From an archaeon (GTDB taxonomy: Archaea > Thermoproteota > Nitrososphaeria > Nitrososphaerales > Gagatemarchaeaceae), in contig JAJZNC010000060.1 of NCBI GenBank assembly GCA_021848045.1, forward strand, positions 62,001-126,000: a stretch of DNA of 64,000 bases, written 5' to 3'. The translations under genes were made by a program, and so were the position numbers. The notes below the pieces were generated by a model that was not told the origin of the DNA, made no database searches, and saw only the letters and a list, made by a program, of their open reading frames with translations. Of this stretch, positions 50,460 through 63,087 are shown piece by piece. Numbering within the stretch: position 1 is the stretch's first letter; every line of letters starts with the position of its first letter.

Positions 50460-50606
50460 GCGGTCGTCGTCCAGAGCACGCCCAAAACGTGTGGAGAGTC
50501 TGGTCTAGAGTCCACCGGACGGAAAAGACTTCAGCCCTCCAAGCTGGCAATTCGCGTCCCCATAAGGCGCGGACCAGAGACCAGGGTTCAAATCCCTGCG
50601 ACCGCA
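50460..50606 (+). tRNA. tRNA-Gly(TCC) with three introns; attachment site
   Basis: The 147-nt gene gives a 75-nt tRNA after removal of introns at about 50475-50498 (D loop; a 22-nt variant 50476-50497 also folds), 50509-50526 (18 nt, D stem 22/23) and 50550-50579 (30 nt, 45/46). Spliced stems: acceptor GCGGTCG/CGACCGC, D GTCC/GGAC, anticodon TCAGC/GCTGG, T CAGGG/CCCTG, T loop TTCAAAT. The third intron has a clean bulge-helix-bulge (CTGG/CCAG, bulges CAA and AGA). The anticodon loop CCTCCAA has C at position 33 instead of T. TATA-like TAAAAAA at 50427. The last 13 bases are repeated at 62521. Intron ends in the D arm are tentative. Confidence 0.8.
50594..50606 (+). repeat. Left attachment repeat (attL) in tRNA-Gly
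   Basis: CCCTGCGACCGCA, the T-stem 3' strand plus acceptor 3' strand and discriminator base of tRNA-Gly; identical to 62521-62533. Confidence 0.8.
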
Positions 50607-50656
50607 CTCTTATCTACGTTTAAATACGTTCCTCACATCTGTCATTTCGAAGGAAA

Positions 50657-51940
50657 TTGGCCCGTCCAAGGCACAAGCAGCTCCTAAGGGACCCGGATGT
50701 GGAGAGATGGTTCAACAACCTGGCGCGAGGAAGCGTAATCACTGCGGAGGAGCGGCTCCGGCGGCTGGGGCGTTTCTGCAACGCGACAGGCTACACGCCG
50801 CAGACGGTCGTCGATTTCAAGTGGAAGGACCCGGAGGGCTTCGACAAGTTCATGATGGACTATGTTGACGACTCCTTGAAGAAGGGGGAGAAGCCGGCCC
50901 AGGTGAAGAACAACCTCGTCACCATGAGATCGTGGCTGGGTCACTTTGGGCTGAAGATAGAAAGGAGGATCAAGCTGCCTGTCTCGGACTATGTAGACGA
51001 GGTCGTCCCCACAAAGGAACAGCTCGCCCAGCTCCTCAGACATTGCGACACAAGGGCCAGAGCGATTGCTGCGCTAATGGCCTTCTCTGGATTGCGACCG
51101 GAGAGCCTGGGGAACTACTTGGGCAACGACGGCTTGAGGCTGAGCGATCTCCGCGAGCTGGAAGTCAAGAAGAAAGATGGTGCGGTGGAGTTCTCCAAAG
51201 TCCCGACGATTGTTGTAGTCAGGAAGACGCTCAGCAAGGCCCGGCACCAATACTTCTCTTTCCTGCCGGAGGAGGGATGCCAGTACCTGAAGGAGTACCT
51301 CGAGGCGAGATTGAGGGACGGTGAGAAGCTGCAGCCTGACAGCCCATTGATTAGCCACACAAGGGCGAGCAGCAGGCTTTCATTCCTCAGGACTACGAAG
51401 CTCGCTTGGGAGGTGAAACTGGCGATCAAGGCGACGGGGTTCACATGGAGGCCTTACGTGCTGCGGTCGTACTGCGACACAGCCTTTGATATCGCGGAGT
51501 CGAAGGGGTTCATCTCCCACCCCTGGCGGCAGTTCTTCATGGGACACAAGGGCGACATCGAGGCGAGGTACTCGACCAACAAGACGAGGTTGCCACCCGA
51601 CATGATAGAGGAGATGCGAGGAGCCTACAAGCGGTGCGAGGAGCTTCTTCAGACCTCCAAGGGAGAGGCGAGCAGCGAGAAGATTAAGGAGACCTTCAAG
51701 GAACAGCTACTGCTGGTCGCCGGGTTCAAGCCGGAGGAAGTAGAGAAGATGGACCTGACGCAGATAACCAACGAACAGCTCCAGGATATAGTGAGGCAGC
51801 GCTTGCTGGGGGCGATGGTCAACAACGGCTCGAGGCAGAGGGTCATCAACACGGGGGAGGTGGAGCACTACATCCAGCAAGGATGGGAGTACGTTGCCCC
51901 GCTCTCGAACGACAGAGTGATTCTCAAACTCCCAATCTGA
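50657..51940 (+). CDS. int: Tyrosine recombinase/integrase
   Basis: 427 residues. N-terminal SAM-like domain (about 15-105) and catalytic domain with the conserved residues: Arg I in MAFSGLRPESLGNY, Lys in the beta hairpin region, Arg II in YVLRSYCDTAFD (the preceding position is Tyr/Val rather than His), His III in FMGHKGDIEARY, and nucleophile Tyr in ARYSTN. A C-terminal extension of about 120 residues (KETFKEQLLLVAGFKPEEVE) follows, as in thaumarchaeal element integrases. TTG start. Adjacent to the tRNA-Gly attachment site and intact, so the element may still excise. Confidence 0.9.
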   Translation: MARPRHKQLLRDPDVERWFNNLARGSVITAEERLRRLGRFCNATGYTPQTVVDFKWKDPEGFDKFMMDYVDDSLKKGEKPAQVKNNLVTMRSWLGHFGLKIERRIKLPVSDYVDEVVPTKEQLAQLLRHCDTRARAIAALMAFSGLRPESLGNYLGNDGLRLSDLRELEVKKKDGAVEFSKVPTIVVVRKTLSKARHQYFSFLPEEGCQYLKEYLEARLRDGEKLQPDSPLISHTRASSRLSFLRTTKLAWEVKLAIKATGFTWRPYVLRSYCDTAFDIAESKGFISHPWRQFFMGHKGDIEARYSTNKTRLPPDMIEEMRGAYKRCEELLQTSKGEASSEKIKETFKEQLLLVAGFKPEEVEKMDLTQITNEQLQDIVRQRLLGAMVNNGSRQRVINTGEVEHYIQQGWEYVAPLSNDRVILKLPI

Positions 51941-51969
51941 GTCGTGTGAAAGAACGACGAGGCGATCCA

Positions 51970-52443
51970 ATGACCAATCGGCCACGGCTGAGCGACAGGA
52001 TAAGACTGCCCGAAGGCTTCAGGTTGATCCAGCGAACAGACATCGAACAGGAATTCAGCTGCGGCGAGCCGCGCATGGACAAGTACCCTCTCCGCCAGTA
52101 CTACGAGTGGAGCCTTGAACCTGAAGCCTTGGTCATTGTCCGAGAGGTCGAAAGTCGAGTCGCCGGCGTTCAATATCTGATGGTGCACGGTGGCTACATC
52201 ATGCTGGAGATGCTCGCGCGGAACAAGCTGCTGCAGTACCCTGGAGCCGGCGGCGACCTCGTGAGGGTCGTCGAGCGCGTCGTAGCTCCCCAGCTAGGAA
52301 TCACCGAAATTCGAATGGAGGCCCTGCAGCATGTTGTGAGGTATTATGACGACGTATTGGGATACGAGGAGAGTGGGAAGTCCTACAGGGATCCTGAGTG
52401 GGGCTTGCTCACGCCTAAGAGGAAATTTTTGCCTCGACCTTAG
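51970..52443 (+). CDS. GNAT-like acetyltransferase
   Basis: 157 residues. A GNAT-like pattern is suggested by FRLIQRTDIEQEFSCGEPRM (N-terminal strand and the CGEPRMDKY-type start seen in toxin-like GNATs), VIVREVESRVAGVQYLMVHG, MLARNKLLQYPGAGGDLVRV (acetyl-CoA pyrophosphate loop position) and LQHVVRYYDDVLGYEE. ATG 51970 follows the integrase by 29 bp. The tail overlaps a convergent ribbon-helix-helix gene. A toxin role is conceivable but the classical order (RHH first, same strand) is not present. Confidence 0.65.
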   Translation: MTNRPRLSDRIRLPEGFRLIQRTDIEQEFSCGEPRMDKYPLRQYYEWSLEPEALVIVREVESRVAGVQYLMVHGGYIMLEMLARNKLLQYPGAGGDLVRVVERVVAPQLGITEIRMEALQHVVRYYDDVLGYEESGKSYRDPEWGLLTPKRKFLPRP

Positions 52444-52645
52444 ACTTTGAGCGCAACGTCTTCGGGTTGACCAGGTGAGCGCCTTGGTCGGGCTCTGCGC
52501 GCACCTCTGCGATGTACTTCTGGATGTAGGTGCTCTCCCTAAGGTGAGTCTCGATTTCTCTGGACACATTGGTGCCGCTGTCGAGCGCGGCCCGGGTCAG
52601 AGCGGAATAGAGCTCCGGAGTCATCGAGATTGTCGTTTTTATCAT
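52415..52645 (-). CDS. Ribbon-helix-helix protein
   Basis: 76 residues: beta strand KTTISMTPELYSALTRAALD, second helix GTNVSREIETHLRES, then a charged C-terminal tail ending with overlap into the convergent GNAT gene. The TTISM strand with following helix is typical of MetJ/Arc-type DNA-binding domains such as antitoxins. Upstream minus-strand promoter region is AT-rich (TATAAGAATA near 52666). Confidence 0.75.
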   Translation of the reverse strand: MIKTTISMTPELYSALTRAALDSGTNVSREIETHLRESTYIQKYIAEVRAEPDQGAHLVNPKTLRSKSKVEAKISS

Positions 52646-52759
52646 ACTCTAGCCTTACCCTAGTATTCTTATAAACATGCCTGCATTTCATTATCCCGAG
52701 CAAAAGGCTGCGAAGACCGCCTTTGGGGGAAGAATAATACCTGAGACGTCGGAAGCCCC

Positions 52760-53449
52760 TCACGCAGATCGCTCTGCCGGAGGCTCCAATCCCGCTAGAC
52801 TATTGTCCACTTTCCGCGCAGCCTCTCTAAACAAGGCTAGGGAACTGAGTATTTCCTCCTTCACCGGACCCTCGGGTAGTTCCTTCGCTAGATCGAGTAG
52901 ATGGCGATAACGATCTTTCATCCCCCATTTGATGAACCTCTTCTCCCAAAGAATTCCCCCAGTGAGCAATTCAGTAAGTCGGATTTCAGTCCCTTTGCTC
53001 TCACCTTTTTCGAGGTCCTCCCGCATCAGCGACGGGTTGTACTTCAACAACAGATTCCGGATGACCTCCAGCTTCTCGTTCACCTCTCTTTTGTCCTTGC
53101 CATCCAATCGCCTGAAGGTCCTCAGAAGAAGATAGCGGAGGTCGAAGAGTAGATCATAACAGCGGCCCAGTGCTATCGCAATCCGCGTGTTAGTTATGAT
53201 TTCGAGGTCGTCTTCCTCTTCCGCGAGCCTAATGAATCTGATTCGCTCCAGTTCCCGCCTTCCTGCATCGGTAAGTACGTAACGACCTTCTTCGTCTTTT
53301 GAGATGAATTCCGATTCACCAAGCCTCGCCAGCGTGACATAGATTGTTTTGTCGGGCCTTCTTGATTCCCTGACCAGGTCGGAGTAACGTGTTGGCCCCT
53401 TCTTGAGCAATTCTAGAATTGAACCCTTCACTGTGCCGTCTGGCATCAA
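52760..53449 (-). CDS. Winged-helix (PadR-like) regulator
   Basis: 229 residues. N-terminal winged helix: GSILELLKKGPTRYSDLVRE, TIYVTLARLGESEFISKDEE, GRYVLTDAGRRELERI. The remainder is helical with a leucine-rich stretch (CYDLLFDLRYLLLRTFRRL) likely for dimerisation. Two inverted repeats (53454-53465, 53495-53510) flank a shared palindromic TATA box in the divergent promoter region, so autoregulation together with control of the 53515-54976 operon is likely. Confidence 0.78.
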   Translation of the reverse strand: MMPDGTVKGSILELLKKGPTRYSDLVRESRRPDKTIYVTLARLGESEFISKDEEGRYVLTDAGRRELERIRFIRLAEEEDDLEIITNTRIAIALGRCYDLLFDLRYLLLRTFRRLDGKDKREVNEKLEVIRNLLLKYNPSLMREDLEKGESKGTEIRLTELLTGGILWEKRFIKWGMKDRYRHLLDLAKELPEGPVKEEILSSLALFREAARKVDNSLAGLEPPAERSA

Positions 53450-53453
53450 CCTA

Positions 53454-53510
53454 CCTACGCGTAGGAAGGCTTATAAGGATAACTCTACGCAGTCCCTACC
53501 CATAGGTAGG
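53454..53510. promoter_or_regulatory. Divergent promoter with two palindromic operators
   Basis: CCTACGCGTAGG (53454-53465) is a perfect 12-bp palindrome; CCTACC-CATA-GGTAGG (53495-53510) repeats the same half-site. Between them CTTATAAG (53470-53477) is a self-complementary TATA box usable in both directions. The layout fits repression of both divergent units by the adjacent winged-helix protein. Confidence 0.72.
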
Positions 53511-53514
53511 TAAG

Positions 53515-53724
53515 ATGGAACTGCAGCACGAAGAATCCGCGCTAGTCAAAATTCGCTGCGTAAAATCGTGGGCGATCGCGAGCCTAAGGGCTGATTCCCC
53601 GCTAAGAAAAGTGCTAGAACGCGAACTTGACGTCATACGAGTCGACGAGTTTGTTGTAAAATTAGGAGTATGGCTGCAGCTCTTGGAGGTAGAAGAGGAG
53701 GAGAGAGACAATGGCCGGTACTGA
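53515..53724 (+). CDS. Small protein, unknown, operon leader
   Basis: 69 residues: HEESALVKIRCVKSWAIASL, then a helix SPLRKVLERELDVIRVDEFV and a Glu-rich end (LEVEEEERDNGRY). No family recognised. First gene of a three-gene unit; it overlaps the next gene by 14 bp and starts 5 bp after the second operator, suggesting a very short leader. Confidence 0.55.
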   Translation: MELQHEESALVKIRCVKSWAIASLRADSPLRKVLERELDVIRVDEFVVKLGVWLQLLEVEEEERDNGRY

Positions 53725-54016
53725 CCTGCTCCTGGACTGGACTATCCTGTTCGAAGTTGGCTACCTCATCCTCGACGCGTTTGTGAACTTCGACAAGAAG
53801 AATCGGGAAATGACTGCGAGACGGATCGTGGTGGTCTCCCTGCTGTCTCTTCTTGGGTCGTCAATCCTGTTGGTACTCGTCGGACAGGTCAATCAGGACC
53901 TTCCTGCGTTCACGGGCCCTCTTCTAAGCGCCGTCTGGATTGCGTTGCTCTTCTTGGTCTTCCGCGGCTCCTGGATGCTCTATCATTCCATGCTCGCCTA
54001 TTCTGGGCGTCTCTAG
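53711..54016 (+). CDS. Three-helix membrane protein, unknown
   Basis: 101 residues with helices DLLLDWTILFEVGYLILDAF (partly amphipathic), RIVVVSLLSLLGSSILLVLV and LLSAVWIALLFLVFRGSWML, separated by short charged loops. No family recognised. Overlaps the preceding small gene and is followed after 9 bp by the coiled-coil protein, so all three are probably made together. Confidence 0.65.
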   Translation: MAGTDLLLDWTILFEVGYLILDAFVNFDKKNREMTARRIVVVSLLSLLGSSILLVLVGQVNQDLPAFTGPLLSAVWIALLFLVFRGSWMLYHSMLAYSGRL

Positions 54017-54025
54017 TCGGAGCGA

Positions 54026-54976
54026 GTGGACACCGTGGAGCTGGTGGAAAAGCGGACCTCCGAGACACTCGCTCCGATGGGTGAGAAAGTCGGAAAAATC
54101 GAAGCCATCGCGGACGCCCTGAGGGCTTCCGTCGAGCAGTGGGACAAGAAGGCACCTCAGACTCTTGATGCGATAAAGAAGGCGAGCGACGCAACGAGCA
54201 GGTCTAACGAGTGGATCTTCAACTGGGTGGAGATGGCGAAGAAGGACATGAACCACATCGCCAGCCGGTACGAGGAGATGGCCGAGGCGCACCGAAATGG
54301 CGCGGCGACAATCTACCTGGTTTCAAACAAGCTGGAGTCGCTGGTCGAGAGGGCCTCGATTCTCGAGGAGGCCATAGACGAGCTCCTGGCCGACCGCGCT
54401 GGGGCACCAAAGGAGGATGGGAACGTTGACGGCCCCGGCAGCAAAAGCTTGGTACAAGCGGGGGTGGCGGAATCGAGTCTGGTCGTTGCAGCGGAGAAAG
54501 AGGGTACCGCAACAGGGCGCAAGCAGCTGACCAGGGAGGACGGGCTGGCAAACAGGGAGCGGGGCAACAACGCCCAGCTGATGTTCTGCGAGCAGATTCT
54601 TCGTGGGGCAGGGAAGCTGGTGGACAACAGCATAAAGGAGGGGACCCCGGACTACGTCTTCTACGCTCCCGGGACGCGCAACCCCAGGGGCGTAGGCGCG
54701 TTCAAGGCACTGACGTTAAGAGAGGACGGGACTAGGCAGAGGTGGATACCGAGGAGGAAGGTGCTCGCGGAGCAGCGCATGGCCCTGAAGTTGGGCGTCC
54801 CGCTCATCCTGTTCGTCCTTAATTTCGCGAACGGAAGGATTTGGTCCAAGGTCGTAGCGGTGGGGGAGCTGAAGGAGTTCAGCGGGCTCACCACGCCTCT
54901 GATGATGGTGGAAAACGACACGCAAGCAGAGAAGGCGTGCAAGGAGACGCTGGAGATGGCCCTCCAGCTGCTCTGA
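54026..54976 (+). CDS. Coiled-coil protein with possible PD-(D/E)XK-like C-domain
   Basis: 316 residues. The N-terminal half (1-125) is a predicted coiled coil (EKVGKIEAIADALRASVEQW ... VSNKLESLVERASILEEAID), then a low-complexity linker, then a domain from about 185 with NNAQLMFCEQILRGAGKLVD, GTPDYVFYAP, GAFKALTLRE and VPLILFVLNF. The order helix, D, ...xK, strand resembles restriction-endonuclease folds as in RmuC-type proteins, but the usual D/E-x-K reads AFK, so activity is uncertain. GTG start. Last gene of the membrane-protein operon. Confidence 0.6.
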   Translation: MDTVELVEKRTSETLAPMGEKVGKIEAIADALRASVEQWDKKAPQTLDAIKKASDATSRSNEWIFNWVEMAKKDMNHIASRYEEMAEAHRNGAATIYLVSNKLESLVERASILEEAIDELLADRAGAPKEDGNVDGPGSKSLVQAGVAESSLVVAAEKEGTATGRKQLTREDGLANRERGNNAQLMFCEQILRGAGKLVDNSIKEGTPDYVFYAPGTRNPRGVGAFKALTLREDGTRQRWIPRRKVLAEQRMALKLGVPLILFVLNFANGRIWSKVVAVGELKEFSGLTTPLMMVENDTQAEKACKETLEMALQLL

Positions 54977-55271
54977 TGCGCGGACGTGCTTCCGCTGTCA
55001 CGCATTGTCGCGACAGTCTCGCCTGTCCAGCGGTGCTCGCCCGCACACGGCGCCGCACCCTTTTTTATTACTAAGCAAGCCCCTAATCTTGACCATCAGC
55101 ACATCGCGACAACCCGTGCACCCGCACCTCCCAACCCCCTTTGACAGTCCGCCTGTCGCCGGCCGACCGCAGTCGGATAGTTCCGCGTTGCTAGAGTGTT
55201 TTCGTTCAACCCGTCCCTAGAGGCATCCGTTGGCTTCGGCTCGAATAGTCTCCTGAGACACAGCGCGTACG

Positions 55272-55628
55272 TTACCCCCTACGCCTCTCTATCACGACTC
55301 GCTTGCCGTCTATCCTCGCGACCAGCTCCTCGAGTGGCTTGAAGGGGAAGGCGCTGTCACTCACGAACTCGCTGGGGAGGTTGATGCTGTGCCTCCCCTT
55401 TGACACGTAGATCTTGACCTTTGCTTGCGCCGTCGCAGGATTATTACTCGGTAGCTTCAAAAGGTATCCCTGCTTCAATATCTCGAGGTGCCGCCTCGCA
55501 TACAGAGAGGTGCTCGTCTCCTTCATCGAGGTCGTCATGAGGGTGAGCAGGAAACGCGAGAACGACGCAGAGAGGATAGCCTCCCTGATGCTGTCGTCCA
55601 GGGCTAGACTGGGAGCGGATTCTGCCAA
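55272..55628 (-). CDS. Hypothetical protein, unknown
   Basis: 118 residues, no known family. N-terminal helical half (DDSIREAILSASFSRFLLTL, TSLYARRHLEILKQG) and C-terminal beta half (KVKIYVSKGRHSINLPSEFV, RIDGKRVVIERRRG), so an alpha/beta protein of plausible DNA-binding size. Lone gene in an AT-rich part of the element. Start ATG 55628. Confidence 0.5.
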   Translation of the reverse strand: MAESAPSLALDDSIREAILSASFSRFLLTLMTTSMKETSTSLYARRHLEILKQGYLLKLPSNNPATAQAKVKIYVSKGRHSINLPSEFVSDSAFPFKPLEELVARIDGKRVVIERRRG

Positions 55629-55830
55629 AGTTTAGATTATTAGTTGCCACTACTCTAACCAGTTTTTCGAGCGGATTAGCCGTGCAGGAGACCGTGAAGT
55701 TGCCCTCGGGAAGGGCGGCGCTTCCGTCTGCAGGGCACCTACCTGGATGAAGAAGCACACCCCCAATTCTCTTGTGATTCGGTGCAAAAGATAAATCGAG
55801 GACCCTCATCCAAAATGTAAGCAGAAGTCT

Positions 55831-56097
55831 ATGAAATCGATACTAGTGGCCGGCGTTTTCCTAGTGGTCGGTCTGGCCTTCTTCTTTCTTGCTCCCGTCT
55901 ATCAAGTTTCGTACCATAACCCTCCGGTCTGCAATTCGGCCAACGCGGTGATATATTGTGGTGCGGTGGTCCCTCCTTCAATCTGGAAGTCACTGAGCTG
56001 CGTTGTCGGCATCGGAGCAGGAGTGATATATGTCACCGGTCCCTTTCCCTCACCTCGGTATCGTTTAGGCGATTTCCTTCTTTATTGTCCCCTTTGA
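55831..56097 (+). CDS. Small membrane protein, unknown
   Basis: 88 residues: N-terminal hydrophobic helix (SILVAGVFLVVGLAFFFLAP), an extracellular-looking loop with two cysteines (PVCNSANAVIYCGAVVPP), and a second helix (SLSCVVGIGAGVIYVTGPF). Such helix-loop(Cys)-helix proteins are frequent in archaeal elements. Function unknown. Confidence 0.5.
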   Translation: MKSILVAGVFLVVGLAFFFLAPVYQVSYHNPPVCNSANAVIYCGAVVPPSIWKSLSCVVGIGAGVIYVTGPFPSPRYRLGDFLLYCPL

Positions 56098-56503
56098 ACC
56101 AAGTCAGCCGATGAATCCTGACAGGCCTTCAAAATTGCCAAAGCCGACATCAACTCGACAGGGAGTTTATGGGGAGCTTTTTGCCCCTATTGCGAGGACG
56201 TTTTGAGAAAATACGTTATCTGACAGACTGAATGAGAATCAGGTCATTGCTGTTGCAACATTCTTGAAGGCACAATGATTGCCACTAACTAACGTTAGTG
56301 AGAAGCGAATCGACATCAAAGACATTTGTCCCGACAAAGTAACGGAACTACTCATTGAAGCGAAAGGCGAGATTGGTTCGAAGGGTCGGACTGAGCGTTA
56401 CAAGGAGAGTTTCTCTCTTGGACAGAAGAAGGGACCGTTTAGGCAAGCAGCTACTATGGGCGGCTCATGCTTTCAGCACTGCCCCCTCGTCTCGAATGCT
56501 TGA
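56098..56503. other. Intergenic stretch within the element
   Basis: About 400 bp, AT-rich. A plus-strand frame at 56279-56503 has a mixed charged sequence and no family match; I do not consider it a gene. The palindromic CTAACGTTAG at 56287-56296 is noted. Confidence 0.4.
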
Positions 56504-57439
56504 TTAGGAATCCTTCCAACCGAGGGTGAGGGTCGTGGCGCCGCTATTCCAGCCAGCGGTTGGAGTGCAGAAGGTATCGGGCGTCGATGCGCTCGTAGTA
56601 GCGGTACCGCCACTGGGGCTCGTTGTGTAGGAGACCGAGCCAAAGGCATCTGAGGTCGTTCCGGGCATCTGCGTACAGGTGCTCAAATTGATGGGTTCGA
56701 GGGCGCCCGCATAAGCCAAGGGATACTGGTCAGAAGTGCACTGGTACAGAATTGAATGTGTGCCCGCGGAGGTATCCTTGGCGTTTATCCCGTACCCCGG
56801 TCCGTTATTGATGCAACCGGATATACTTGAGTAGTATGTCATCACCCCTTGAATGGTGTCACCGTTACTTGTGCTCACAGGGGTGGCATAATCGACGATG
56901 CTTCCGATAAGGGCATACGCCGTAAGCCTAAAGCTATTGGAGCAGTCAGTTGAGGTGATGCAGCCATAGGTCAGAAGGGGCTGTATTATGTCCGGGTTGT
57001 TCTGGGTCGAGTAGTACACAAGAGCGTCGAACAGTCCTACTCCTTGGTTCGAACCAAATGATCCGCTTGAGGGATTTGGAGGACGGGTCCATTGATCCTG
57101 GAAGCTGGCAAAATATTGGTTGAGGTTCAACCCACCCTCCGTTCCGAGAGCCTCAGGTCCGCCGGAGCAGCAGGAATAAACCACACTCGTCATAGAGCAC
57201 GGGATAGCCGCGTTCGCCACGACGCTGCCGTTCGGAAAAATAATCGTGCCAGCTGCAGAATTCACAATCGAACCCGACGGTACTTCACGGGCGCAGAACG
57301 ATCCTCCGTCCTGCGAGGATACCGCAGAAGTCGAAAGGGGTGCCGCGATTGCGGTCGACAATCCGCCTGATGTGATTAGGACCGCTAATAGTGCAAACAT
57401 ACCTATGACCTCCAGTTTGGATATTGCCCGGCGCATCAT
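56504..57439 (-). CDS. Secreted protein, unknown
   Basis: 311 residues with a signal peptide/anchor (KLEVIGMFALLAVLITSGGL) and a long Gly/Ser/Thr/Tyr-rich domain with about a dozen cysteines (for example VVYSCCSGGPEALG, CITSTDCSN, CINNGPGYGINAKD). No enzymatic motif is recognised. Asn/Gln-rich segments such as LNLNQYFASFQDQW suggest a beta-rich surface protein. Lies in the part of the element rich in exported proteins. Confidence 0.6.
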   Translation of the reverse strand: MMRRAISKLEVIGMFALLAVLITSGGLSTAIAAPLSTSAVSSQDGGSFCAREVPSGSIVNSAAGTIIFPNGSVVANAAIPCSMTSVVYSCCSGGPEALGTEGGLNLNQYFASFQDQWTRPPNPSSGSFGSNQGVGLFDALVYYSTQNNPDIIQPLLTYGCITSTDCSNSFRLTAYALIGSIVDYATPVSTSNGDTIQGVMTYYSSISGCINNGPGYGINAKDTSAGTHSILYQCTSDQYPLAYAGALEPINLSTCTQMPGTTSDAFGSVSYTTSPSGGTATTSASTPDTFCTPTAGWNSGATTLTLGWKDS

Positions 57440-57559
57440 TGCGTCCGAAAGTCATTGGCCCGGACCTAAAAAGGAAGATTCACAACTGATAACTCAATTG
57501 AATAATCAACTGATAACAATGTTCTGTAAAATCACAGGCAAGCCGCCTCTACTATCTTC

Positions 57560-57946
57560 CTAGGCCTCTCCTGTCTGCCGGTATCCCTTCAAAGTATCTT
57601 CTATGTACCTGAGCAGGATCGGGTCACTACAGGTGAACTTGTAGGTCTTATGCGTTCTATCTCCATGACCTTTTGTGGTGACCTCGGCCACGAGATGAAG
57701 TCGTAGCGACGAATACTGGGGCTCGTACGAGCCTGGTTGGCCGCGAATGGCTCCGATGACTTCACTTGGGTAGAGACGTGTCTTGTGACAAATCTCGGAG
57801 ACAGAAAGCGGGTCCAGGCTGTTCATGAGAGTCCAAAGCACGAGACGCCGCACCCGTCCTCGCAATGCCATGTTAAGCAAGCGACGATCGACATTAGGGT
57901 CGCGCGTGGCATCAGCCATGACAAACCCAGAAGATTGTTCTACCAT
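57560..57946 (-). CDS. Winged-helix regulator, unknown
   Basis: 128 residues; the winged helix runs RRLVLWTLMNSLDPLSVSEI, CHKTRLYPSEVIGAIRGQPG, then a wing with LHLVAEVTTKGHGDRTHKTY and a C-terminal helix (PILLRYIEDTLKGYRQTGEA). This is a common archaeal type of predicted transcription regulator. ATG 57919 is an alternative start. It may control the secreted-protein gene downstream. Confidence 0.68.
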   Translation of the reverse strand: MVEQSSGFVMADATRDPNVDRRLLNMALRGRVRRLVLWTLMNSLDPLSVSEICHKTRLYPSEVIGAIRGQPGSYEPQYSSLRLHLVAEVTTKGHGDRTHKTYKFTCSDPILLRYIEDTLKGYRQTGEA

Positions 57947-57972
57947 CCTCGTATTTACGCATTTTCACGAAA

Positions 57973-58443
57973 CTAAAAGCCGAAAAGTCGTGTTATGACT
58001 AACATTGATGAATTTGAACGTAATTGGGTGTGCGAACCTGCCTTGTCGCTGGAGCGGATTATCTCGCGCTTCCTCTTCGAGGGCTCTATCCAGTCCAGCG
58101 CGCGATAGACCCTCTGCACCTTCTTCCTGTTGACGGGCGTGCCGAGCACCCTGGTGAGCTGCGCCGCTATCCTCCTCGTCCCGTAGGTGGGCCTCTTGAC
58201 GGCTATCTCTCTTGCCTTCTCCGTGACAACGGGGTCGAGCGAGACCGTACGCCTCGTCTTCGCGTAGTAGTAGAGGTTCCTGCTCGCGCCTGCGTGGAGG
58301 AGCGCCTTCCCGAGGCTCATTCCAGAGTCAGGCATCGCCCTGATCACCAAGAGCCTCTCCCCCTTTGTCTGCTCCAAAATGTTGGACGAATCGGTTGGAA
58401 CGGCACTAGCATAGCTGGATCGTTGGAAGCACGCTCGAACCAT
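57973..58443 (-). pseudogene. Truncated IS3-type transposase (OrfB N-terminal part)
   Basis: The frame contains the HTH_21-type N-terminal region of IS3 OrfB: GERLLVIRAMPDSGMSLGKA, ASRNLYYYAKTRR and PTYGTRRIAAQLTRVLGTPV then NRKKVQRVYRALDW. The DDE catalytic core that should follow is absent, and the ends of the frame read through unrelated sequence. Its GC-rich composition contrasts with the AT-rich neighbourhood, so it is a later insertion remnant, now overlapping the 3' end of the propeller gene. Confidence 0.75.
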
Positions 58444-60130
58444 TGAATATGTGCAGCGTCACGCATACCCCGTACCCAGCTATCCAACCTCCCGCGGCCG
58501 CCCAAATTGGCCCGCTTGCTGACCCCGCCACCTGGGTAAGGGAAGGTATTGAAAACGCGATAATAGCGGTGCCGTTATAACCAACCAATTCCGCTTGGTT
58601 GGTGGGGTACTCACCACCGAAGAGAACCGCCGAGTCAGTCTGTATCACGGCAACAGGATTACCTGACACCCTCGCGAAGCTATAGTTCCATAGTAGATTC
58701 CCTGCTGAGTCAAGCAACATGACTCCTGTATCATCTCCAATGGCGATGTGGGAACCGTCCGAAGACATGACCACAGGCTGCACCTCCGTGAAGAGCTGCC
58801 GTTGCCAGAGCAAGGCCCCCCGGGTCCCGTCAAAGTAGAGCAGACTGCCGTTGTCGGCACCGGATACGGTTCCCACCGCCACGCGGGACCCATTGCTCGA
58901 CATTTGGATGAATTTGACATTCGGTTCTTCAGTGTAATTCCAGACCTGCTGCCCTTGTGAATTCAGATAGAACACCCCCTTGTCAGCGTATGTAATCGCG
59001 CTCCCATCGTTCGACATTGCGAATTGACCGATTGAGCCTCGAGTAGGGGAGGTGTAGTTCCAGAGATCGAGTCCATCGCTGTTGAAGCAGATTATCCCGC
59101 TTTGGCCGTTCCCGTTTGTGTATGCCACGACGACTTTCGACCCGTTACCTGACATGGCGACATTCTGCAGGTACGTCCCCTGCGCCGCCGTGAAGTTCCA
59201 GAGCGCCGCACCCCCTCTATTGAAGACCAACAGTTGGCTGCTGCCATTTACTGGGCACAAGCATGGACCCTCCCCGAACGCCTGTCCGTTTCCTGCTGTC
59301 CCGGTGGCAGCGACATAAGAGCCATTGCCTGAAATTGCCACCGAGCCGACGGTACTGCCGTTTGTCACGTGCCTCCAGACCACTCTTGGTTGCCCCTTCA
59401 GGGCTACAAGATACACAGAGCCGTTATACCCACCCGTATCTGACGTTCCGGCCGCGGCGTAGGTTCCGTCAGGGCTTACGCTGAGTGCGTCAACTGTTTG
59501 GATTCCTGATAGATTGGTTGGCGCGGTATTCGGAAACTCGATGCTGAAGTTAAGATAGTTCCAAATCTCCCGATAAATCAGCCAGGTTTCATTCGCGACA
59601 GAGTATGAGTAGAAATCCTGTGCGGTGACAGTGCCCCTGAAATTACCGAGGAAGGGGTTTTCTCCGTAAAAGCTGAAGTTCGAGTTAACCACCGCTGACT
59701 TCTCTGATGTCACAGTTACGCTCTGAGTTAGGTTCGCTATGGTGGAGGGACTTCTCCAAGGTGCGAATGTGCTGTTCACCAGTGAGAGTATCTCTTTCGG
59801 ACCGGTGTAGACGCCCTTAAGTCCTGCCAGGTTGCCCAAACCCAACCAAATCAGGGTCGCATTTCCAGCGTACTGGCCAGCGATTCCTGACACATTGCCG
59901 TCGGAAAGGAGCTGCATATGGTGGGTGAAGTCGCTGAGCACAATGTCCGTCATTGACGTGCTCGCTGACGTAGTCGCGGTTTGAGACTGGGATGATCTCG
60001 GTGACGAATTCGAACTAGAAGGTCGTGACTGCAACAGTAATCCATAACCCGCGAAAGCCACGACAATCAACACGACCATTGCTAGGGTTACCAGCTTTGT
60101 TGAGACTCCAGACCGCCCTCCACGCTTCAA
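58406..60130 (-). CDS. Anchored extracellular beta-propeller protein
   Basis: 574 residues. N-terminal transmembrane anchor (LVTLAMVVLIVVAFAGYGLL), Ser-rich linker, an SnoaL/NTF2-like region (about 60-195, including LSDFTHHMQLLSDGNVSGIA and ANETWLIYREIWNYLNFS) and then a six- to seven-bladed propeller with repeated blades of the form MSxNGSxVAVGT ... LYFDGTRGALLW and WNYTxP, similar to PQQ/YVTN-type repeats. Many sequons. The 3' end abuts the transposase remnant, so the last blade may have been altered. Confidence 0.75.
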   Translation of the reverse strand: MKRGGRSGVSTKLVTLAMVVLIVVAFAGYGLLLQSRPSSSNSSPRSSQSQTATTSASTSMTDIVLSDFTHHMQLLSDGNVSGIAGQYAGNATLIWLGLGNLAGLKGVYTGPKEILSLVNSTFAPWRSPSTIANLTQSVTVTSEKSAVVNSNFSFYGENPFLGNFRGTVTAQDFYSYSVANETWLIYREIWNYLNFSIEFPNTAPTNLSGIQTVDALSVSPDGTYAAAGTSDTGGYNGSVYLVALKGQPRVVWRHVTNGSTVGSVAISGNGSYVAATGTAGNGQAFGEGPCLCPVNGSSQLLVFNRGGAALWNFTAAQGTYLQNVAMSGNGSKVVVAYTNGNGQSGIICFNSDGLDLWNYTSPTRGSIGQFAMSNDGSAITYADKGVFYLNSQGQQVWNYTEEPNVKFIQMSSNGSRVAVGTVSGADNGSLLYFDGTRGALLWQRQLFTEVQPVVMSSDGSHIAIGDDTGVMLLDSAGNLLWNYSFARVSGNPVAVIQTDSAVLFGGEYPTNQAELVGYNGTAIIAFSIPSLTQVAGSASGPIWAAAGGWIAGYGVCVTLHIFNGSSVLPTIQLC

Positions 60131-60571
60131 GAGGAATTCCCCCTAATTTTTAGATGACGAGTCTTTTAGAGATATTGGAGGAATGTTCTCAGTCGGGAGG
60201 TCGGGAGACGCAAAAAGCTTACCGAGAGCAATGAAGGAGTAAGGAGTCGCTTTTCGCATAATCTCAGCGCGGACTCAGCATGCGTGTACATTTTCCATCA
60301 GACGCTCATTACGTCTGTAGCAAACAGGGCAGAAATGAGCCGTTCTCGATACGCGGAGCGGCATTTTCACCCACTTTTGGGAATCTCTGGTTAGTCTGAA
60401 CATGATTGCGTTTCCTGAAATGTTTCGTCGCCACCAGAGGACAATCAAACTATCTTGTGGCAGATCCGGTCGGTTCAGATTCGTTCCCCAATTTTCCAGT
60501 AGGGCGCTTGTTCCGAAAGAAACCAGATAGGATGAGACGGCCCAACTTTCGCGCGTGATGTTCCTTCCTTC
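60131..60571. other. Intergenic stretch within the element
   Basis: About 440 bp, AT-rich, no convincing gene. It holds the promoter of the propeller gene (minus-strand TATA-like CTAAAAAT near 60145). Confidence 0.4.
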
Positions 60572-61816
60572 TCAGGCTCCATCGCTTGTATCCCAATGAA
60601 TTAGGAAGGTTCCGTACCCGTTCCCAACTTTGCTCATTGCGTCTGTTGTTGTCTGTTGATAATTGTTGTTGTACATATAGACCCCGTATCCATCCCCTGC
60701 GCTGTAGTACGAATAGACCCCAGTGTAGTCTCCGGTCAATCCGCCGGGGTTGAAGGCTACGTCTGTGAAATTCCAATCCGAGAATCCAGCCAGTTGATAT
60801 ACGGTATTCCACTCTCCCATGAACGCGGCGTATACAGGCGTGAATGGGTTCGTTGAGTCCCCTATGCTCACCGGGTTCCCGTTCGGCTGGGCGTCGCATA
60901 GTTCGCTTGACGTCCAGTCATTGAGGAATATGTAGTAGCCGTTTCCGCTGTAACCCGTGTATGGCAATTCATTCTCCTCGGTTGATTCCATTTCGTCGCC
61001 TGGATTGACTTCGCCATTAGCATACTGCATGTTAGGACAGTACTGGACGCTGGATTGACACCATGTGTCACTGTATCCCTTACAATAGATTTCAGTCCAT
61101 CCTTCATAGTCAACATAATCATTAGGAGGCGGATTTACGTTGGGAAAAATCGTTGAAATGATGCCCGCCTGGACTATTGTGGCATCACTCTGGGACGCCG
61201 TCTTTTGGTCCGTGAGCCCAACCCACTCGGACAGGTCACACTTGTAGGAAGACGTGCAGGTTATCGTACCTCCTGGCTCCTTTAGTTGAGGAATATACCA
61301 TATCGCATCAGACTCGTAGACTTGCTGACTCGCTCCTGAGTTTCCGGCTATTGCGTAGCCACTCCACTGACAGGAAGAGGAGCAACTTGGGGATATTGAC
61401 TCGGACACAGCAGGAGAAATGTGAGCCCAATTTACCACGTCAGTCGTTGGATTTTCCGAAATCGTGAGAGTATAGTCCGACCCATTAGCGCTTCGAGCGA
61501 GGAAGTTCACAGCTACGCCAGTCCAAGAGACAGTGCAATCCGATCCATACGACCATCCATCGTCGGAACCTGTGTACGTTACACTGAAGCCAGCTGCAAG
61601 TTGTTGGTACTGCGGTGTGGAAACGGCGAAAGAAATCGCCGCTTGAGAGGATACCGCTTCTGGTGCTCTAGTCACCTGGGCTTCTAGAGTCCCCATTGTG
61701 CAATCGACAGACGTCTGCGCATGAACAATCGACATGGAGCTCACTATGCCAATGACAATTGTGACCATTGTGACCGCTGCAAAGAATCTAAGGCCGCTTG
61801 ATGTCGATCCTCTCAT
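60572..61816 (-). CDS. Eqolisin-like (G1 family) glutamic peptidase, secreted
   Basis: 414 residues with a signal peptide (RFFAAVTMVTIVIGIVSSMS, then VHA). The peptidase G1 (A4/eqolisin) pattern is visible: QWSGYAIAGNSG, DAIWYIPQL, CDLSEWVGLTD then DATIVQAGI with the expected Gln, and DYEGWTEIYCKG with the expected catalytic Glu, followed by EVNPGDEM. Several cysteines. G1 peptidases act at acidic pH and are known mainly from fungi, with some prokaryotic members. The gene has a clear TATA box and palindromic operators, and a winged-helix gene upstream. Confidence 0.75.
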   Translation of the reverse strand: MRGSTSSGLRFFAAVTMVTIVIGIVSSMSIVHAQTSVDCTMGTLEAQVTRAPEAVSSQAAISFAVSTPQYQQLAAGFSVTYTGSDDGWSYGSDCTVSWTGVAVNFLARSANGSDYTLTISENPTTDVVNWAHISPAVSESISPSCSSSCQWSGYAIAGNSGASQQVYESDAIWYIPQLKEPGGTITCTSSYKCDLSEWVGLTDQKTASQSDATIVQAGIISTIFPNVNPPPNDYVDYEGWTEIYCKGYSDTWCQSSVQYCPNMQYANGEVNPGDEMESTEENELPYTGYSGNGYYIFLNDWTSSELCDAQPNGNPVSIGDSTNPFTPVYAAFMGEWNTVYQLAGFSDWNFTDVAFNPGGLTGDYTGVYSYYSAGDGYGVYMYNNNYQQTTTDAMSKVGNGYGTFLIHWDTSDGA

Positions 61817-61829
61817 TTCCAGAGTGTTG

Positions 61830-61909
61830 CTAATGAAATCATTAGGATATAACTCATGCAGAATCTAACATCAGGGATTAATCATCCCTGATTTGTAATC
61901 CGGGATTAC
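61830..61909 (-). promoter_or_regulatory. Operators and TATA box of the peptidase gene
   Basis: Three inverted repeats: CTAATGA-AA-TCATTAG (61830-61845), ATCAGGGAT-TAATC-ATCCCTGAT (61870-61892) and GTAATCC-G-GGATTAC (61895-61909). On the minus strand a TATA box (GTTATATCC, about 61846-61854) lies between the first and the other two, placing the transcript start next to the ATG at 61816. Good sites for the upstream winged-helix protein. Confidence 0.7.
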
Positions 61910-61985
61910 AGATACTGGTTTCAGAAGATTCCTCCGGATTGCGCTCGTGCCGAGACACAAAGACAGTCGTCGACTGCTACTGAGC

Positions 61986-62279
61986 TCAGTGACCGTATCC
62001 TTCCAAGGTTACCAACGTCTTGTAGGCTCTCAACCATTCTCTCCCCTTGACCGTCATGGAGTATTTCTTGCGGCCTTTGGACTCGTCTATGACTTGAACA
62101 AATCCCCAAGAAAGCAACTGTCTGAGATAACTGCGTGCAACGTCGACGTTGAGATTGGTGGAGGTCACTATCCTGTTCTGGGTGGCATTACCATGGGTCA
62201 GGATTTCCAGAATCGACGCGAGCATATCTCGCCAAGTTCGTCGCCATGATCTTTGGGCCAACCCGTATACCGGATTCAC
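61986..62279 (-). CDS. Winged-helix regulator
   Basis: 97 residues: MLASILEILTHGNATQNRIV (helix 1), TNLNVDVARSYLRQLLSWGF (recognition helices), VQVIDESKGRKKYSMTVKGR (wing) and a final helix. This short archaeal winged-helix type is often an element-encoded repressor. ATG 62222 (MLASILE) is an alternative start. Directly upstream of the peptidase gene and its operators on the same strand. Confidence 0.75.
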   Translation of the reverse strand: MNPVYGLAQRSWRRTWRDMLASILEILTHGNATQNRIVTSTNLNVDVARSYLRQLLSWGFVQVIDESKGRKKYSMTVKGREWLRAYKTLVTLEGYGH

Positions 62280-62520
62280 AAATTGTAGGCCTGAACTTAT
62301 GGGTTGTGAAATAAATCATTCAGGCTAGGTTGGCCAAGTCACCATTAAGATCTTGTCGTAGTCGGGTGGCGGTGTCGCTTCGTATCATGACGACCCTCTT
62401 TTGGCGACTTTTCGTGCGGGAAAAACGCCTCAATTACGAGCTGTCATGCCATCAAGCGAAATCGCCTACCTTCCTTTGCACCACAATAGCAGCGAACTTG
62501 AACGCAACTACGTCTAAGAA

Positions 62521-62533
62521 CCCTGCGACCGCA
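62521..62533 (+). repeat. Right attachment repeat (attR)
   Basis: CCCTGCGACCGCA, identical to the 3' end of tRNA-Gly at 50594-50606. It is the only other copy I find in the window and marks the right edge of the element. A 49-codon minus-strand frame (62452-62601) spans it but has no recognisable product. Confidence 0.75.
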
Positions 62534-62693
62534 ACCCTTCCTCTCTCTTTTGCTCCACTTCCAGCAGTACCAGCAACGCGCTCTACCACCATCGTGCTCA
62601 TACGCACGCCTCCTGTCCCCGGCCCGATGACACGTCTTAAGTAGCGAACAGCATTAGACCGAGATTCACTCCGATGGCCCTGAGGCTTGTCAT

Positions 62694-62828
62694 ATGGCGC
62701 TGCCAGTAGAACAGAGGGCTCTTCTTATTGTCGGCCTGACTGTAATCGTGATTGTCGTGGTGTCCCTGATACGCTTCTTGAGAGGCAGACCTATCTCCAA
62801 CTTCTCATCCTCACCCAGGAAACAGTAG
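62694..62828 (+). CDS. Single-pass small membrane protein, unknown
   Basis: 44 residues: a short polar start, one transmembrane helix (ALLIVGLTVIVIVVVSLIRF) and a basic tail (LRGRPISNF...RKQ). It is outside the element's right repeat. Composition is the only support; no family can be named for so short a protein. Confidence 0.4.
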   Translation: MALPVEQRALLIVGLTVIVIVVVSLIRFLRGRPISNFSSSPRKQ

Positions 62829-63087
62829 GCTTTGGAGTTAGCTAGCCTAGTCGCCCTAGCACTTGCCACCATCCGGACGATCGTCTGTCACATCATAGGC
62901 ATGCGAGAAGCGTGAGGTCTATGGCATGTCCACGGTTTGCGATTGACTTTTCAACTCGCTGCGACCGGACTCCTAGACTCCCCCCATTCCCGCTTGCGAT
63001 GGCGCTGGGCCACGATCGCTGGTCGCGCTGGGAAGCGGACCGCGCCGTTCGGGGGCGGGTTCTCAACAGCGAGAAACGACCACCGGT

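Follow-up and report, generated by a model that had tools for sequence, protein, structure and literature searches.

A predicted 11.9-kb integrated element at the 3' end of a three-intron tRNA-Gly gene in an archaeon of the Gagatemarchaeaceae

Results

The window is a 64,000-nucleotide stretch of contig JAJZNC010000060.1, which belongs to a 1.6-Mb assembly of a Nitrososphaerota archaeon of the Gagatemarchaeaceae. A tRNA-Gly(UCC) gene is located at positions 50460–50606 of the forward strand, and EMG1 lies directly upstream of it. The gene carries three introns on the same strand. Intron 1 (50475–50498, 24 nt) is in the D-loop, intron 2 (50509–50526, 18 nt) is in the 3' strand of the D-stem, and intron 3 (50551–50580, 30 nt) is in the variable loop; the ends of the first and the third are placed to ±1–2 nt. 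The joined exons gave a normal 75-nt tRNA-Gly(TCC) fold. Gaps in the tRNA-Gly genes of relatives coincide exactly with the introns, as genome G012 is without introns 1 and 2 and genome G007 is without introns 2 and 3. The tRNA-Gly was not detected by ARAGORN on the intact sequence because of its three introns, and the Rfam search gave no match worth noting. Position 33 of the anticodon loop is C instead of the usual U, and the same base is found in relatives of the genus.

The tRNA gene ends in the 13 bases CCCTGCGACCGCA (50594–50606, forward strand), and a perfect copy of these stands in the same orientation at 62521–62533. An earlier sequence-only reading had taken these repeats of the tRNA-Gly 3' end as the bounds of a compositionally distinct segment. 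The coordinates of both copies proved exact. The GC content is 53.8% inside the 11.9-kb segment and about 63% outside, and in the part of the window to the left of it the values per kb are about 59–69%. An unrelated 14-bp repeat pair is present in the same stretch, so that the 13-bp repeat taken by itself could have arisen by chance. It is raised above chance because it ends exactly with the tRNA and because the right-arm motif GAACTTGAAC (62494–62503, forward strand) stands 27 bases before the start of the right copy. For the end-motif pattern, the expected number of occurrences in the window is 0.18; it was seen twice, once at the right end, and homologous elements have the motif at the same offset of 27 bases. 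Before the right repeat stands GAACTTGAAC...CTAAGAA here and, at equal distance, GAATTTGAAC...CTAAGAA in the related element G033a. This agreement in motif and spacing independently supports the predicted right boundary. The 1.56-kb relative in genome G041 also has GAATTTGAAC at the corresponding place of its right end. Immediately past the tRNA, the left-arm motif GTTTAAATAC (50618–50627, forward strand) is common to related elements, which share a GTTYAAATAC-like sequence in this position. The inverted match between the arms was compared with 2000 controls. Equally good controls numbered 0 for G006b and G041, 2 for G006a, and 7 for G033a and G019; for the 11.9-kb element taken alone they numbered 462, which is not significant. 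The inverted likeness of the arms in several elements is as expected of integrase arm sites.

The integrase gene (50657–51940, forward strand, 427 aa) starts about 50 bp past the tRNA. The expectation of an intact tyrosine integrase adjoining the tRNA was borne out, since the frame is open and the catalytic residues are present. R147, K194, Y267xxR270, H297, and Y305 are invariant in the nearest homologues. The signature of pNOB8-type integrases, R...YxxR...Y (PMC8371274), is found as R147, Y267-V-L-R270, and Y305. The protein matched PHROG integrases (E 4e-7), and a broad profile of its family matched an archaeal XerC-like (XerA-like) recombinase, 4a8e, in the PDB (E 3e-10). A narrow profile had no match among solved structures, and the integrase scored below the cut-off in a Pfam search of its own genome. 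The call was therefore made from the catalytic residues, PHROGs, and the PDB profile, the Pfam score being weak. No relatives were found in viral contigs or in phage and plasmid records. The core at 50594–50606 lies outside the integrase gene, so that the gene is whole after integration. An integrase of the SSV type, the gene of which is split by integration, was ruled out by the single open frame. The wider integrase family is encoded just past the 3' ends of many tRNAs in assemblies of Nitrososphaerota, Bathyarchaeota, and Thermoplasmata. Within it, the clade of the 427-aa protein is found at tRNA-Gly genes with zero, one, or three introns, with a single Bathyarchaeota tRNA-Asn case as the exception.

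The cargo begins with a possible acetyltransferase (51970–52443, forward), for which there was a very weak PHROG match and nothing else, and a small protein (52415–52645, reverse) that by eye could be a ribbon-helix-helix regulator. A winged-helix regulator follows (52760–53449, reverse), 53% identical to one in G033a. The next two frames, both forward, are a hydrophobic N-terminal part (53711–54016) and a coiled coil with a nuclease-like C-terminal part (54026–54976). They are divided by an in-frame TAG at 54014–54016 and form one open frame in homologues, where a hydrophobic N-terminus with a membrane segment is followed by the coiled coil and the C-terminal domain. The TAG may reflect a true nonsense mutation, a restart of translation, or an error in the sequence. 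The C-terminal domain is strongly conserved, and its PD...K pattern is like that of restriction-type nucleases; a nuclease function may thus be predicted. The protein had no family match, and no curated family was found for it. Its homologues adjoin integrases or integrase-like genes in five genomes (G013, G017, G066, G010, and G121), which indicates a recurrent element gene travelling with different integrases. In G010, the order is as here: a tRNA, an integrase-like stretch, a regulator on the opposite strand, and then the homologue.

The rest of the cargo is on the reverse strand. It consists of an uncharacterised exported protein (56504–57439), an EarA-like winged-helix protein (57560–57946), a transposase remnant of the HTH_21, IS3-like kind (57973–58443), an exported beta-propeller (PQQ-like) protein (58406–60130), a further exported protein (60572–61816) to which one in the 4.3-kb element G006b is distantly related, and a winged-helix protein of the Sso10a/HTH_45 type (61986–62279). 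The earlier statement that capsid, replication, and conjugation genes are not recognisable held in Pfam, PHROGs, and NCBIfam profile matches, and PADLOC gave just weak coiled-coil or HTH matches. Its description of the cargo as unexplained holds in part, since the gene at 53711–54976 recurs in elements and one regulator is shared with G033a.

The same design was found in related elements. G033a is 27.0 kb long, has an integrase 71% identical to the present one, and sits in an intron-bearing tRNA-Gly(GCC) with the same end motifs. In G041 (L130, C88), a minimal element of 1.56 kb consists of nothing but a broken integrase flanked by 14-bp tRNA-Gly repeats. Copies of tRNA 3' ends, 12–22 bp long, bound about ten more members of the family. 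Gene order in the host genus is conserved on the left of the tRNA-Gly as far as the tRNA and differs beyond it. An empty site in relatives had been proposed as a check, and its outcome was divided. In G005 and G006, EMG1 and the tRNA-Gly are followed by one shared gene, there is no integrase, and the tRNA is unoccupied; an exact single-junction empty site for the 11.9-kb element was not found. In G007, an 18.8-kb stretch with a different integrase subtype lies between 17-bp repeats of the same tRNA-Gly. Therefore, this tRNA is a reused entry point. Colinearity between the host and G007 returns at about 66.0 kb, which is 3.5 kb past the right repeat. The right repeat of G007 was tried against G005 and G006 as a clean filled/empty pair, and this was dropped as the following gene is not the same.

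G007 also has a 19.5-kb element with a 22-bp repeat at a tRNA-Arg, and the intron-bearing tRNA-Arg of the host is unoccupied. The two were rejected as a perfect pair: the left side is clear, but about 9.7 kb of non-colinear DNA lies past the right repeat. Inside this element (L098, G007:C12, about 31–35.4 kb), part of the tRNA-Arg end recurs twice, each time after a right-end-like motif; the two copies are putative traces of stacked integrations. Tandem related elements were also observed at tRNA-Ile (L114, L115, and L134; G006:C60 and G019:C1), where several right-end repeats in succession have an identical arm motif.

With respect to the introns, the proposed insertion downstream of the last one was verified, as the core lies past all three. 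The introns are no hindrance because the integration site is downstream of all of them. The repeats of the family are 12–22 bp long and end in the T-arm, and none of the introns was seen inside them. Intron-bearing targets, classed by the acceptor-stem distance, make up 15 of the 23 classifiable tRNAs in the wider integrase family. Of the tRNA genes detected in four host genomes, about half are longer than 90 nt, a frequency taken from Rfam tRNA matches, which miss multi-intron genes such as the tRNA-Gly at 50460–50606. Taken together, the compared sequences show no apparent protection by introns, in a small sample whose members are related.

Discussion

The most probable reading of the segment is a chromosomally integrated mobile element bounded at 50594 and 62533, with a pNOB8-type integrase that would use the last 13 bases of the tRNA-Gly as its core (probability about 0.93). 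What speaks for it is the anatomy of the segment with both its ends, the type of the integrase, the recurrence of the design in related elements, and the unoccupied tRNA in relatives. Points against it are that the search for an exact empty site found none, that the arms of this element alone show no significant symmetry, and that a further, imperfect tRNA-like copy starts at 62957. The integrase would recombine the 13-base core of the element with that of the chromosomal tRNA-Gly gene, the exact crossover point being presumed to fall within the core. The motifs flanking the core are probably the arm sites to which the integrase would bind. A tRNA 3' end carried by the element would complete the gene again, and the displaced original end would become the distal repeat. 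Since the core lies outside the integrase gene, this gene stays whole, and its product could also catalyse excision into a presumed circular form. The three introns, upstream of the core, would be left untouched.

From its gene content, the segment is a predicted cryptic integrated element (CIE), a class described for Thaumarchaeota in 2019. It has an integrase gene and direct repeats of the target, and no match to a capsid, terminase, or conjugation gene. The marks of a provirus, a major capsid protein together with a packaging ATPase or terminase, were not found by Pfam, PHROGs, or NCBIfam. The thaumarchaeal CIEs (PMC6563490) are similar in their tyrosine integrase, short repeats of tRNA 3' ends, small size, and mostly unknown cargo, in having no capsid or conjugation genes, and in using intron-containing tRNAs too. 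The median repeat is 17 bp there and 13 bp here, and the median size is 17 kb there against 11.9 kb. Unlike them, the present element comes from a lineage outside that survey, occupies a three-intron tRNA-Gly, and carries the 53711–54976 gene, for which no curated family was found. The integrated pNOB8-type plasmids of Sulfolobales (PMC8371274) likewise have an intact integrase by a restored tRNA with the R...YxxR...Y residues. However, their repeats are 40–50 bp, and replication and conjugation genes of their kind are absent here. The Caldiarchaeum tRNA-Thr element (Sugahara et al. 2012, PMC3293823) is also a mobile element beside a tRNA in an intron-rich archaeon. That element is suggested to have introduced an intron into the tRNA, whereas the introns here are outside the 13-bp core.

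Three other explanations were weighed. The segment may have been integrated once by the same route and now be an immobile island. The in-frame TAG in the recurrent gene, the transposase remnant, the lack of any replication or transfer gene among those seen, and the broken integrase of the 1.56-kb relative all point this way, but the integrase is open, both cores are identical, and a small size and a low number of genes are common among CIEs (PMC6563490). We regard this as a real possibility and lean against it. A larger or composite element, either ending at 62957–62972 or with 62534–62972 as a decayed older element stacked in the same tRNA, is improbable. An imperfect copy of the tRNA-Gly end, CTGCGACCGGACTC, does lie at 62957–62972, 0.43 kb past the right repeat, and 13 of 14 positions agree with the tRNA end and the bases that follow it; the low GC extends to about 63.0 kb, and stacked elements occur in the relatives G006 and G019. 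Nevertheless, the end motif is not found 27 bases before this copy, whereas it precedes the perfect core copy at 62521 as in homologous elements. The distal copy could be what is left of an older, stacked element. That the segment is a provirus of an unknown virus group, with the exported proteins as virion proteins, is very improbable: several exported proteins are encoded, one with relatives in other elements, and a HerA-like ATPase is common to G033a and G006a, but this ATPase is missing from the 11.9-kb element and no capsid, packaging, or virus match was found in PHROGs, phage records, or viral contigs.

Returning to the integrated element, its use of an intron-containing tRNA is not new, because such genes were hit in 10 of 39 thaumarchaeal tRNA insertions, with repeats of median 17 bp (Krupovic et al. 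2019, PMC6563490). As cited in PMC3293823, Randau and Soll's hypothesis of protection concerns introns inside the attachment site; in that form, it is not strictly contradicted by the tRNA-Gly case. The intron-guard proposal is made directly testable here, as one integrase clade is found at tRNA-Gly genes with 0, 1, and 3 introns. Two proposals are put forward jointly and tentatively, at somewhat less than even odds. The first is that the family may serve as a natural test, in which introns would give no protection against integrases with a core in the last 12–22 bases of the tRNA. The second is that these elements may represent an undescribed family in this lineage of Nitrososphaerota, with a module of integrase, winged-helix regulator, and membrane-anchored, coiled-coil, nuclease-like protein. 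If this is true, the module moves together with integrases of different subtypes and has a role in transfer, in maintenance, or in the exclusion of competitors. The case also points to a recurrent and uncharacterised element protein, that of 53711–54976.

Two further observations were made in genome G001. A related 9.8-kb element is located at an intron-bearing tRNA-Asn (L117, G001:C109), and by eye its cargo includes a metal-transporting P-type ATPase, a cation efflux protein, and a catalase-peroxidase. Another contig (L085, G001:C98) ends 11 bases past the orthologous tRNA-Gly, a break that is as expected if the population were mixed for the sequence past the tRNA.
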